From contig MFRL01000066.1 of assembly GCA_001784565.1 (NCBI GenBank), positions 1-33,458 of the forward strand: 33,458 nt of DNA, in the 5' to 3' direction. The notes under the pieces are model-generated. The model worked only from the letters and a program-made list of their open reading frames with translations. It did not search any database and had not been told where the DNA came from. Shown piece by piece: positions 17,005-20,211 of this stretch (position 1 is the first letter of the stretch; each line of letters starts with the position of its first letter). The stretch is from Candidatus Melainabacteria bacterium GWF2_37_15. GTDB taxonomy: Bacteria > Cyanobacteriota > Vampirovibrionia > Gastranaerophilales > UBA9971. Position numbers and translations under genes: made by a program.

Positions 17005-18339
17005 ATGAGAGAACAAATAGAAGCTACGCGCGACAGAGCACTAGAAATCATAGGTAACGCAGAAATATATAAATACAAAGGAACTGTATCAAAACTTCTT
17101 GGCTTAACAGTTGAAGCTAGGCTTCCAGGGTTAAAAATAGGCGATCTATGCTACGTAGAAACAGTCAATGGAGACCAAAAACCCGCAGAAGTCGTTGCAT
17201 TCAAGGGAGACGTAGCTCAGATGCTCCTTTTGTACGACGGTTCCGGGATTGCACAGGGCAGCCTGGTAACATCAACTAACACGCCAATTATGTTCCCTAT
17301 GGGGGATTTCCTCCTGGGTAGACTCATAAACCCGCTTGGCATACCGCTGGACGGAAAGCCGCTGGATACTTCCAGGGCGAAGTATGTATCCATTGATAAA
17401 GACCCGCCTGATGCGTTTACAAGGCCAATAATTAAAAATAAATTCCAGTCAGGAGTCAGGGCTATTGATTCAATGTTAACCCTTGGAGCAGGCCAGCGTA
17501 TGGGGCTTTTTGCAGGTAGCGGTGTTGGCAAAAGTACACTGCTGGGTATGATCGCTCGTAACAGTGAAGCTGATGTCAACGTAATGGCGCTGATTGGTGA
17601 GCGGGGAAGAGAAGTTAAGGAATTTATAGAAAACAGCCTCGGGCCGGAAGGTATGAAGAGGTCTGTACTTGTTTGTTCCACAGGAGACCAGCCTCCGCTA
17701 ATCAGGATGCGGGCATTTCAATCTGCTACTGCTGTTTGTGAATACTTCCGGGATCAGGGGAAGAAAGTATTTTTAATGACAGATACGGTTACAAGATGTG
17801 CAATGGCTGGAAGGGAAGTAGGGCTTTCAATAGGGGAGCCTCCCACAATGAAAGGCTACCCGCCATCTATATTTTCCTGGCTTCAAAGAGTTCTTGAAAG
17901 GACAGGCACAAGCCCTAAAGGTTCTATTACAGCACTTTATACAGTTCTTATGGAAGGGGATGACATCAATGACCCGGTTGTTGATACTGTAAGGGGTATT
18001 GTGGACGGGCATATATTCCTTTCCCGTAAAGTTGCTGAAATGAACCATTATCCTGCCATTGATGTTTTAGGCAGTATCAGCAGACTTTTCCCTGAAATAA
18101 CTGACCTTGAACACCAGGGTGCTGTAGCAAAAATGCGTAAACTCCTGGCTATGTACAGGGAAAATAAGGATTTGATTGATGTAGGTATGTACCAGCCCGG
18201 ACAGAACCATATGTTAGATATAGCTATTAAAATGATGCCTGAAATTAACAAGTTTCTTCAGCAGGGCATTAAAGAACATGTAAGTATGGAAAGCACTTTG
18301 CGCACACTTAAACAAATGATGGTTAATGTGAATGTGTAG
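17005..18339 (+). CDS. fliI: Flagellum-specific ATP synthase FliI
   Basis: A 444-residue rotary-type ATPase energising flagellar protein export. Walker A at ~168-182 (LFAGSGVGKSTLLGM), the conserved GERGREVKEFIE after it, Walker B region VFLMTDTVTRCAMAGREVGL (~254-273), and PPSIFSWLQRVLERTG, all typical of FliI rather than F1-beta. Length is normal. It begins one base after flhA stops. The last nine codons (KQMMVNVNV, stop TAG) are duplicated 699 bp downstream, marking the left edge of an inserted or duplicated module; the gene itself appears intact. Confidence 0.97.
   Translation: MREQIEATRDRALEIIGNAEIYKYKGTVSKLLGLTVEARLPGLKIGDLCYVETVNGDQKPAEVVAFKGDVAQMLLLYDGSGIAQGSLVTSTNTPIMFPMGDFLLGRLINPLGIPLDGKPLDTSRAKYVSIDKDPPDAFTRPIIKNKFQSGVRAIDSMLTLGAGQRMGLFAGSGVGKSTLLGMIARNSEADVNVMALIGERGREVKEFIENSLGPEGMKRSVLVCSTGDQPPLIRMRAFQSATAVCEYFRDQGKKVFLMTDTVTRCAMAGREVGLSIGEPPTMKGYPPSIFSWLQRVLERTGTSPKGSITALYTVLMEGDDINDPVVDTVRGIVDGHIFLSRKVAEMNHYPAIDVLGSISRLFPEITDLEHQGAVAKMRKLLAMYRENKDLIDVGMYQPGQNHMLDIAIKMMPEINKFLQQGIKEHVSMESTLRTLKQMMVNVNV
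18310..18338 (+). repeat. Left copy of 29-bp direct repeat (fliI 3' end, attL-like)
   Basis: The last codons of fliI, 18310-18338, recur at 19009-19037 with one mismatch (T at 18329, G at 19028): 19 identical bases, one difference, nine identical bases. The two copies are 699 bp apart. Confidence 0.9.
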
Positions 18340-18356
18340 ATTAGGTAATAGTTAAA

Positions 18357-18560
18357 CTATTCAGGAATATACTCAAAAAGTTCTCCAACAGTACAATCAA
18401 GAGCTTCGCAAAGTTTTTCGATTGTGCGAAAGCTTATCATATCAGTTTTTTCATTATAAAGATTAGATAAAGAGCTTGCGCTTATGCCTGTAATCCTATG
18501 AAGTTCCGCTATGCGTATTTTTTTCCTTGCCATTAAAACGGCTAAATTATTTTTTAACAT
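18357..18560 (-). CDS. XRE/Cro-CI family helix-turn-helix regulator, 67 aa
   Basis: A 67-residue one-domain DNA-binding protein, MLKNNLAVLMARKKIRIAEL then HRITGISASSLSNLYNEKTD (helix-turn-helix at ~18-37), ISFRTIEKLCEALDCTVGELFEYIPE. This is the compact YozG-like class of phage and plasmid repressors, always read from this start. No strong Shine-Dalgarno precedes the ATG. It is divergent from the 65-aa gene with 108 bp between, in which alternating inverted repeats cover the promoter; autoregulation and control of the neighbour are likely. The gene lies within the repeat-flanked module. Confidence 0.9.
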   Translation of the reverse strand: MLKNNLAVLMARKKIRIAELHRITGISASSLSNLYNEKTDMISFRTIEKLCEALDCTVGELFEYIPE

Positions 18561-18588
18561 TATAAAATTTTAACAATTTTTATAAAAT

Positions 18589-18617
18589 TTGACTTTTCAT
18601 AGCAAATTTAATATGAT
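18589..18617 (+). promoter_or_regulatory. Sigma-70 promoter of the 65-aa gene
   Basis: TTGACT (18589-18594), 17 nt, TATGAT (18612-18617). The -10 box is inside the first operator half-site, so a bound repressor would block it. Confidence 0.75.
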
Positions 18618-18638
18618 TTATATCATATTTGATATGAT
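18611..18638. promoter_or_regulatory. Operator: three alternating ATATGAT half-sites
   Basis: ATATGAT (18611-18617), 4 nt, ATCATAT (18622-18628), 3 nt, ATATGAT (18632-18638). Each neighbouring pair is an inverted repeat, giving two overlapping palindromes sharing the middle half-site. Best candidate binding site for the divergent XRE regulator. Confidence 0.65.
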
Positions 18639-18668
18639 AATTAAAAAATTTCTTAATAAGGAGCAAAA

Positions 18669-18866
18669 ATGGGCAAAAATAGACAACTTTATAAACTTAG
18701 GGCAAGGATTTCAATAAAATCTGAGCGTGCTAAATATTTACTCGAAAATATTATAGAAAAACTGGTAGACAACGTAGAATCTCAGGTTTTTGCCGAAATG
18801 GCACTAGATGAAATCAATCGAATATCTAAAATGTCACAAAAAATAGGTATTATTCTAAAACATTAA
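18669..18866 (+). CDS. Hypothetical protein, 65 aa, controlled by the divergent XRE regulator
   Basis: A 65-residue basic, probably all-helical protein starting MGKNRQLYKLRARISIKSER. No recognised domain, no membrane segment. The start is clear: AAGGAG 7 nt before the ATG. It has a good sigma-70 promoter overlapped by operator half-sites and a rho-independent terminator, so it is a complete, regulated single-gene unit. The arrangement resembles a phage-type regulated cargo or toxin/antitoxin-like pair, but no motif supports a toxin function. It lies entirely inside the module flanked by the fliI-end repeats. Confidence 0.75.
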   Translation: MGKNRQLYKLRARISIKSERAKYLLENIIEKLVDNVESQVFAEMALDEINRISKMSQKIGIILKH

Positions 18867-18900
18867 AACAACTCCCCACATCAAGAATGACAGCCATGAT

Positions 18901-18928
18901 CATTGTTTTAAAGACAATGTTGTTTTTT
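18901..18928 (+). terminator. Rho-independent terminator of the 65-aa gene
   Basis: CATTGT (18901-18906) pairs with ACAATG (18914-18919), loop of 7, followed by TTGTTTTTT. It is 34 nt after the stop codon. Confidence 0.7.
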
Positions 18929-18944
18929 AATATTAAATTACTTG

Positions 18945-18969
18945 TTGATATCACAAATTGTGATATCAA
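18945..18969. repeat. Perfect 25-bp palindrome inside the module
   Basis: TTGATATCACAA (18945-18956) and TTGTGATATCAA (18958-18969) around one A. No T-run follows, so a protein-binding site is more likely than a terminator. Its TTGATAT core is shared with the operator region (TTGATATGAT at 18629-18638). Confidence 0.7.
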
Positions 18970-19008
18970 AATTTTCATTTTATTTTTAGTTACAATTTAA
19001 CCAGTTAC

Positions 19009-19037
19009 AAACAAATGATGGTTAATGGGAATGTGTA
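19009..19037 (+). repeat. Right copy of 29-bp direct repeat (attR-like)
   Basis: 28 of 29 bases identical to 18310-18338. In the same frame it still reads K-Q-M-M-V-N-G-N-V followed by TAA, a ghost of the fliI C-terminus with no fliI coding sequence before it. Confidence 0.9.
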
Positions 19038-19103: not shown

Positions 19104-19349
19104 ATGGAACAAATTGTAAAAATAGCGCTTGATTTAAATGAAAAAACCGAGAATAGATATGAACTGGTTTATAAAATAGCTGAATTAGCGAAGAAGCTCA
19201 AAGACGAACAGGTTCAAAAATTCCATCACGATGAATTTGGCTATGATACAGAGCCAATGTATAATTCAGCAATTAAGAAAGAAAAGCCTGTCCAGCATGC
19301 CATAATGGTACAGTCTAGTGAGTCTGATGACAGCGGTCTCGTTGGTTAG
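19104..19349 (+). CDS. rpoZ: RNA polymerase omega subunit (RpoZ)-like
   Basis: An 81-residue protein. The segment LDLNEKTENRYELVYKIAELAKKLKDE (~8-34) matches the omega signature, where NRYELVxxAAxRAR is nearly invariant; omega binds the beta' subunit and aids RNA polymerase assembly. I use ATG at 19104, preceded by AGGAGAG, instead of the longer open frame from 19059, whose extra 15 residues lack a ribosome binding site. The second half (FHHDEFGYDTEPMYNSAIKK) is acidic and not conserved. The gene follows the right repeat by 66 bp and its 3' end overlaps rnhC by 32 bp in another frame. Confidence 0.75.
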   Translation: MEQIVKIALDLNEKTENRYELVYKIAELAKKLKDEQVQKFHHDEFGYDTEPMYNSAIKKEKPVQHAIMVQSSESDDSGLVG

Positions 19350-20211
19350 TTTAAACCTTTCTGAGCAGGAATTAAAGTCTGATCTGGAAAATAAAGGGTT
19401 TGAATTCAAGCCTGCAGAACACGCATATTGGCGGGCACAAAAAGACGGGTTAACTATTACTTTATATAAAAGTGGAAAGATTCTTGTACAGGGCAAAGGG
19501 GCAGAGGAGTTTTTTTCCCCCAACAGAATGGATTGCTTCGTCGAGCCTAAAGGCTCTCCTCGCAATGACATTTCAAAACATAACTCCTGGATTGGAACTG
19601 ATGAATCCGGCAAAGGTGATTATTTTGGCCCGCTTGTGGTTGCAGGCGTGCTGGTTGATGAAAAAAACATGAACCAGCTTATTACACTTGGAGTTCAGGA
19701 CAGCAAAAAAATTAATGATACTACAATCCACAAACTTGCGCCTAAAATAAAGGAAATCAGCACTTTTGCCGTTGTCACAATAAACCCGGCCAAATATAAT
19801 GAACTTTACAGCAAGTTTAAAAATTTGAACAACCTGCTTGCCTGGGGACACGCACGAGCAATTGAAAATATTCTTGAGAAAACGCCGTGCGAGTATGCGC
19901 TTTCAGACAAATTCGGGAATGAATCCCTTATTAAAAACGCTTTACTAAAAAACGGAAGAAATATTATTCTTGAACAAAGAACAAAAGCTGAGGATGATAT
20001 TGCGGTTGCTGCGGCTTCAGTGCTTGCGCGGGATGAATTCCTCACAAGGCTTAAAAAATTCTCAACAGAATACGGAATAAACTTGCCAAAAGGAGCTTCT
20101 GCGGAAGTATTAAAGCAGGCAGGCGTATTTGTAAGCAAATACGGAATTGAGAAGCTAAATAACGTAGCTAAAATACACTTTAAATGTACTCAGCAAATTA
20201 AAGCATTGTAA
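19318..20211 (+). CDS. rnhC: Ribonuclease HIII
   Basis: A 297-residue RNase HIII, removing RNA from RNA/DNA hybrids. Residues ~15-68 form the TBP-like substrate-binding domain (LSEQELKSDLENKGFEFKPA; LTITLYKSGKILVQGKG). The catalytic domain begins SWIGTDESGKGDYFGPLVVAGV (~92-113) with the RNase H2/H3-type Asp-Glu pair; ALSDKFGN and AEDDIAVAAASVLARDEF carry the further acidic residues. The linker (~70-86) contains a copy of a dispersed palindromic repeat. The start is uncertain: GTG 19318 and ATG 19327 both lie inside rpoZ with no Shine-Dalgarno, so translation is probably coupled. Confidence 0.93.
   Translation: MSLMTAVSLVSLNLSEQELKSDLENKGFEFKPAEHAYWRAQKDGLTITLYKSGKILVQGKGAEEFFSPNRMDCFVEPKGSPRNDISKHNSWIGTDESGKGDYFGPLVVAGVLVDEKNMNQLITLGVQDSKKINDTTIHKLAPKIKEISTFAVVTINPAKYNELYSKFKNLNNLLAWGHARAIENILEKTPCEYALSDKFGNESLIKNALLKNGRNIILEQRTKAEDDIAVAAASVLARDEFLTRLKKFSTEYGINLPKGASAEVLKQAGVFVSKYGIEKLNNVAKIHFKCTQQIKAL
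19531..19570 (-). repeat. Dispersed palindromic repeat inside the rnhC reading frame
   Basis: On the minus strand it starts TGTCATTGCGAGGAG (19570-19556) and ends CGACGAAGCAATC (19543-19531). The same ends occur at 21778-21818. It translates in frame as part of the linker of RNase HIII (DCFVEPKGSPRND). Confidence 0.8.

Follow-up and report, generated by a model that had tools for sequence, protein, structure and literature searches.

The DNA between fliI and an rpoZ-like gene of Candidatus Melainabacteria bacterium GWF2_37_15 contains a recently acquired cassette of an XRE gene and a gene for a 65-aa protein. The cassette belongs to a lineage-restricted, multicopy and recombinase-free set, and it was inserted by a target-duplicating event that was probably one of illegitimate repair. 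We put the probability of this reading at roughly 0.6. The window, meaning the whole stretch of 33,458 nucleotides analysed (contig MFRL01000066.1), comes from a draft genome of 102 contigs, here called G000, and the repeat described below was read from this assembly alone. FliI was searched in 60 genomes, and the nearest by FliI was G002 (90% amino acid identity). The features in question are as follows.

17005–18339, plus strand: fliI (Pfam ATP-synt_ab and T3SS_ATPase_C; 90% amino acid identity to G002 FliI), its 3ʹ end being the duplicated target
18310–18338, plus strand: direct repeat copy 1, the fliI end in use
18339–19008, no strand: inserted segment, 670 bp, 26.9% GC, missing from the G002 site
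18357–18560, minus strand: XRE/HTH_26 regulator, 67 aa (Pfam PF13443, E 1.8e-22; 79% identical to the XRE of the speE-speB cassette of G007)
18589–18617, plus strand: predicted sigma-70 promoter of the 65-aa gene, TTGACT-17-TATGAT, not above shuffles at this locus alone
18610–18639, no strand: a pair of overlapping inverted repeats, AATATGATTTATATCATATT and TATCATATTTGATATGATA, covering and adjoining the -10 box, likely XRE operators
18669–18866, plus strand: 65-aa protein, a predicted two-helix hairpin, here called family S1
18945–18969, plus strand: hairpin TTGATATCACAAATTGTGATATCAA, probable terminator (z -4.5)
19009–19037, plus strand: direct repeat copy 2, ghost of the fliI end, joined to the ancestral fliI-rpoZ spacer
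19104–19349, plus strand: rpoZ-like gene, right flank (Pfam Rpb6 5e-5, below its cut-off; the G002 orthologue lies directly after fliI)
19318–20211, plus strand: rnhC, RNase HIII, right flank (Pfam RNase_HII and DUF3378)

We also observed that the linker of rnhC (window 19500–19590) contains a peptide resembling translated dispersed repeat DNA, VEPKGSPRNDIS, and that a different one, CHSELDPESHEIPAQGR, occupies the same region in G002.

As the first-pass annotation had noticed, the final 29 bp of fliI are found again 699 bp away, counted from start to start, with 28 of 29 bases identical; for a 29-bp pair with one mismatch within 2 kb, the chance expectation in the window was about 1e-7. The second copy translates as K-Q-M-M-V-N-G-N-V-stop, which agrees with its earlier description as a ghost of the FliI C-terminus. 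A search of the whole genome allowing up to three mismatches found the 29-mer only at these two places. The insert was described as AT-rich, and its GC content is indeed 26.9%, compared with 44.4% for fliI and 37.6% for the window. The stop codon of the XRE gene lies 18 bp from repeat copy 1. Beyond both repeat copies, at a distance of 7–10 bp, there is an 8-bp identity (P 0.014), so that more than 29 bp may have been duplicated originally.

In G002, fliI, rpoZ and rnhC follow each other in the same order as in the window, without the module, and the region of the 29-mer is single-copy. A comparison of the fliI-rpoZ junction across relatives, which the first-pass annotation had proposed as a check on mobility, thereby gave an empty site with one copy of the 29-mer. 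With the window flanks joined at the repeat, the alignment to G002 ran uninterrupted across rpoZ and into rnhC. Copy 2 thus adjoins the old spacer directly, and the target was duplicated by the insertion. The possibility that copy 2 is a conserved leader of rpoZ, raised earlier as an objection to mobility, was rejected because G002 is without the second copy. The empty site at fliI is represented by one genome, because the fliI-rpoZ order was found in G002 only among the sisters; other relatives examined have different genes after fliI, and no repeat was found after fliI in the 16 other relatives with a scannable fliI end.

The two repeat copies differ at 1 of 29 positions, whereas the fliI genes of G000 and G002 differ at 8 of 29 over the same stretch. 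Since the ghost is non-coding, the duplication is therefore younger than the split of G000 and G002, and a deletion in G002 is unlikely. Had the module been ancestral at fliI-rpoZ and been lost from G002 via recombination between the repeats, an identical empty site would have been produced; an old ghost, however, should differ from the fliI end at about 8 of 29 positions, as G000 differs from G002, and not at the 1 of 29 found. The different neighbours of fliI in the other relatives and the location of the nearest cassettes elsewhere also speak against such a loss, and we regard it as very improbable. The sequence comparison supports the view that the segment was recently inserted at the end of a gene and that this end was duplicated in the process.

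The gene annotated as XRE within the insert matched HTH_26 with high significance. ATATGAT inverted repeats overlap the predicted promoter in front of the 65-aa gene, and this layout recurs in several cassettes; at most single loci, the promoter and operator predictions were not above shuffles. From this layout, the XRE protein most likely represses the divergent 65-aa gene via its promoter. The insert had also been credited with a terminator and a palindrome. The palindrome at 18945–18969 proved to be a real hairpin (z -4.5) and was the sole terminator-like site found, but the stem just 3ʹ of the 65-aa gene (about 18900–18920) was weak (z -0.94). The palindrome core, TCRCAAATTGYGA, occurs five times in the genome, compared with zero in the reversed control. 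We noticed that, besides the window site, these occurrences are on contigs C15, C21, C50 and C93 of G000, and that two are at the outer edge of 65-aa cassettes. Rfam gave no match in the window.

Comparison of the 65-aa gene of the window (C66) with its copy on C21 gave dN 0.09 and dS 1.59 (dN/dS about 0.06), indicating that the protein is under strong purifying selection. AlphaFold2 predicted a helical hairpin with a pLDDT of 93.8; fold matches were uninformative, because hairpins resemble many unrelated proteins. No family match to the protein was found in Pfam, NCBIfam, PADLOC, PHROG or PDB. It had no relatives in viral contigs, phage or plasmid records either, and the earlier idea of a very small satellite, read as a phage satellite, has no support.

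Relatives of the 65-aa protein were found in 7 of the 60 genomes, all of one family of Gastranaerophilales, at 20 places (4 in G000 and 16 in the six others). In G000, the relatives of the window gene are on C21 (82% amino acid identity), C81 (with a frameshift) and C15 (lacking the N-terminal half). When 383 genomes of the order were searched with a profile, 16 gave matches, and the strong ones come from this family and from a small number of genomes of a second family; a narrower profile search of contigs gave nine loci in three MAGs; named records with 65-aa relatives were MAGs of Candidatus Gastranaerophilales and Melainabacteria. Where flanks could be read, the XRE gene is divergent from the 65-aa gene in most relatives. 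Ordinary chromosomal genes, which vary from place to place, flank the cassettes, and the sites are unrelated.

Three more empty sites were found: nth|pgmB (in G002 and G008), speE|speB (in G009) and accA|prmA (in G004, G005, G009 and G000). At accA|prmA, the two genes overlap by ATGA in relatives, and both are intact around the cassette. No further empty sites were readable, because relatives lack synteny at most of the other cassette sites. The pair G001:C145 and C226 was considered as an empty site and rejected, as it looks like a repeated region. In G008:C29 (L041, L266:6617), an XRE/65-aa cassette was observed to be duplicated in tandem, with a 189-bp repeat, 442 bp apart, and with one copy broken.

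The 65-aa proteins have XRE partners of at least four dissimilar kinds. The closest 65-aa protein to that of the window is the C21 copy, at 82% identity, although the XREs of the two are 26% identical; the closest XRE is that of G007:C47, at 79%, and the 65-aa proteins of these two are 62% identical. At the DNA level, similarity between C66 and C21 extends little beyond the ribosome-binding site and the gene. On C101, an XRE similar to that of the window is beside an unrelated 72-aa gene, and other XRE genes of G000 are divergent from 66-aa and 108-aa genes, both multicopy in relatives. These sequence comparisons demonstrate that the cassettes exchange their XRE and small-protein partners. Three further multicopy small-protein families (66, 108 and 72 aa) were thus seen divergent from XRE genes, on C53, C97, C81 and C101 of G000.

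Repeats were also found at other XRE cassettes, and the duplication lengths, with that of the window included, are 29, 29, 22, 64 and 66 bp. On C53 of G000, a pair of XRE and 66-aa genes is associated with a 29-bp repeat with one mismatch, corresponding to the 5ʹ end of pncC. The ghost exceeds 29 bp and reaches as far as the pncC start codon, and the final codons of the 66-aa gene read into it. The protein ends in EKLVKEADQ at C53 and in EKLVKADNS in the relative on G008:C91; from this comparison, the junction lies within a short shared stretch (TAAAAG). In G006:C140, there are two repeats, a perfect one of 22 bp and another of 66 bp, and G008:C85 (L269:4492 and 5090) has a 64-bp repeat (63/64) of the 5ʹ end of a small gene around two XRE genes. 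On C21, what remains of an nth 5ʹ end, 19 bp long, is at the expected ancestral nth start, as placed by synteny with G002 and G008; this ghost is not significant by alignment score alone. Gapped alignment of the cassette flanks gave no other convincing ghosts, and clear flanking repeats are absent from the other 65-aa loci, save the internal tandem duplication of G008:C29. Target duplication is thus not shown to be general to the cassettes, and old events may have decayed.

Several arrangements around these repeats were recorded as separate observations. In G006:C140 (L241:1296 and 1782), the 66 bp that recur are the 5ʹ end of an AbrB-like gene, fused in frame to a second XRE gene, possibly a chimeric gene made by duplication. 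At G008:C85, a third XRE-like gene lies beyond the repeat, which looks like serial insertion of regulator partners. On C53 (L277:2284 and 3220), next to the 29-bp pncC repeat, a 250-aa gene lies between two copies of the 3ʹ end of a PIN-toxin gene (64 bp, 60 identical).

The frequency of such repeats was estimated from stretches totalling 556 kb of G000, composed of the window and contigs taken in numerical order regardless of XRE genes; besides those described, this sample yielded no more than one or two comparable repeats that were unique and near-perfect. The association of the repeats with XRE cassettes is suggestive, the samples being small and some stretches having been chosen for holding XRE genes. 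Unique, near-perfect repeats are present elsewhere as well, which weakens the case: on C16 (L259:5960 and 6684), a 74-bp repeat with one mismatch was observed, with copies 724 bp apart; it ends in a terminator-like stem and T run and has no Rfam match.

Genomic islands integrate at the 3ʹ ends of genes via tyrosine recombinases, and the gene end is duplicated and stays functional. The fliI end was likewise duplicated and kept functional, so that the cassette could be a site-specific element or its remnant, moved by a tyrosine recombinase in trans with a 29-bp att core at the fliI end. The location at a gene end that was regenerated and the 28/29 repeat fit this view, as do four tyrosine-recombinase (PF00589) matches in the genome, all on other contigs. 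However, the 29-mer is nowhere else in the genome, related cassettes are at other sites without it, the 16 other scannable relatives have no repeat after fliI, and the repeats at other XRE cassettes are unrelated in sequence and range from 22 to 66 bp. As the first-pass annotation had stated, no integrase or recombinase was found within the 670-bp insert or beside the module. Unlike islands of this type, the cassettes have neither an integrase nor a shared att core, and their repeats differ from one to another. We therefore retain from the earlier proposal of site-specific gene-end integration the recent insertion that duplicated a gene end, as read from the empty site in G002, but not its att-type mechanism, which is quite improbable.

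An undescribed transposase acting in trans, which makes target duplications of about 29 bp and moves non-autonomous XRE cassettes, also seems rather unlikely. The cassettes of the window and C53, with different genes in the same genome, both have 29-bp repeats with one mismatch, and the target is directly duplicated and single in the empty site (G002), as for an IS or MITE with long duplications. Duplications of 16–28 bp are known in one subgroup of the IS1202 family (PMC10132070); elements of that family, however, have a transposase and terminal inverted repeats, and the fliI cassette is without both. No inverted repeat pairing the module ends was found, and the outer ends of the window, G007:C47 and G007:C140 cassettes were not alike by eye. 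Moreover, the C53 ghost exceeds 29 bp, weak similarity continues past the window repeat (P 0.014), and other repeats are 22, 64 and 66 bp, so that the duplication length may not be constant. Repeats that differ in sequence and length, together with the lack of conserved ends, argue against one att core or one transposon. We also considered a dedicated, undescribed mobility mechanism that would spread recombinase-free XRE/small-protein cassettes of 0.5–0.7 kb through these genomes; each insertion at a gene end would regenerate the gene by duplicating some 29 bp or more. This is unlikely; if true, two-gene regulatory modules would be shuffled like cards.

The insertion event copied 29 bp or more from the 3ʹ end of fliI, and we favour illegitimate repair as its cause. 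The probable route would be fill-in of a staggered break or template switching, which would fit the variable duplications and the junctional microhomology; an enzyme acting in trans would be a less likely route. Selection would then retain the insertions that leave both neighbours working. Only insertions sparing both neighbouring genes are seen, which gives the cassettes the look of gene-end integrations.

The XRE/65-aa pair may be compared with a type II toxin-antitoxin system, in which the XRE would be the antitoxin and the 65-aa protein the toxin. XRE antitoxins are common, and such systems share with the cassette two small genes, an XRE regulator and a patchy, mobile-like distribution; the copies of the cassette are multicopy, patchy and decaying (the C81 frameshift, the C15 truncation and an internal deletion in G007:C74), and other toxin-antitoxin genes are nearby (RelB/RelE-like at C81 and PIN-type at C53). 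Unlike in these systems, the two genes are divergent and not co-operonic at the fliI locus and in most relatives, and the 65-aa protein has no toxin fold or match to a known toxin family. Searches for toxin and antitoxin families in Pfam, NCBIfam and PADLOC gave no convincing match, Epsilon_antitox having an E of 0.01, below its cut-off. The truncated copy on C15 is beside an intact XRE gene, so at least one copy is dispensable. The toxin-antitoxin reading is conceivable, but we consider it doubtful.

In layout, the cassette is closest to two other kinds of pair and is a member of neither. The TF-smORF modules of phages consist of a transcription factor beside a divergent small protein without homologues, varied in sequence and common in layout (Silpe et al. 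2023, PMC10432266). The cassette resembles them as a divergent transcription factor and small ORF without homologues in known families. In those modules, however, the transcription factor activates and the small protein inactivates cI (PMC10432266), whereas the XRE here is probably a repressor, the cassettes are scattered in the bacterial chromosome, and no phage genes or cI were recognised beside the modules examined. The XRE-DUF397 pairs of Streptomyces likewise combine an XRE with a small protein and have expanded within their lineage, so that a genome has many of them (PMC10364602, PMC6262351); they were predicted as toxin-antitoxin systems (PMC2701414). There the small gene comes after the XRE gene, but here the 65-aa gene is divergent and has no Pfam match, with no DUF397 match at the window cassette, the XRE types are swapped, and the insertion is recent.

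With regard to function, we infer that the XRE and the small protein form a selfish or regulatory pair; the target of the hairpin protein would be either its XRE or a component of the cell. No description of the 65-aa family was found in the libraries searched, and the family is under strong selection. The fliI cassette represents a dated and cleanly bounded entry of a tiny regulator/small-protein pair, without a recognisable recombinase and without harm to the neighbouring genes. As there are many sister cassettes, several with empty sites, their spread and partner swapping would be directly testable in this lineage.
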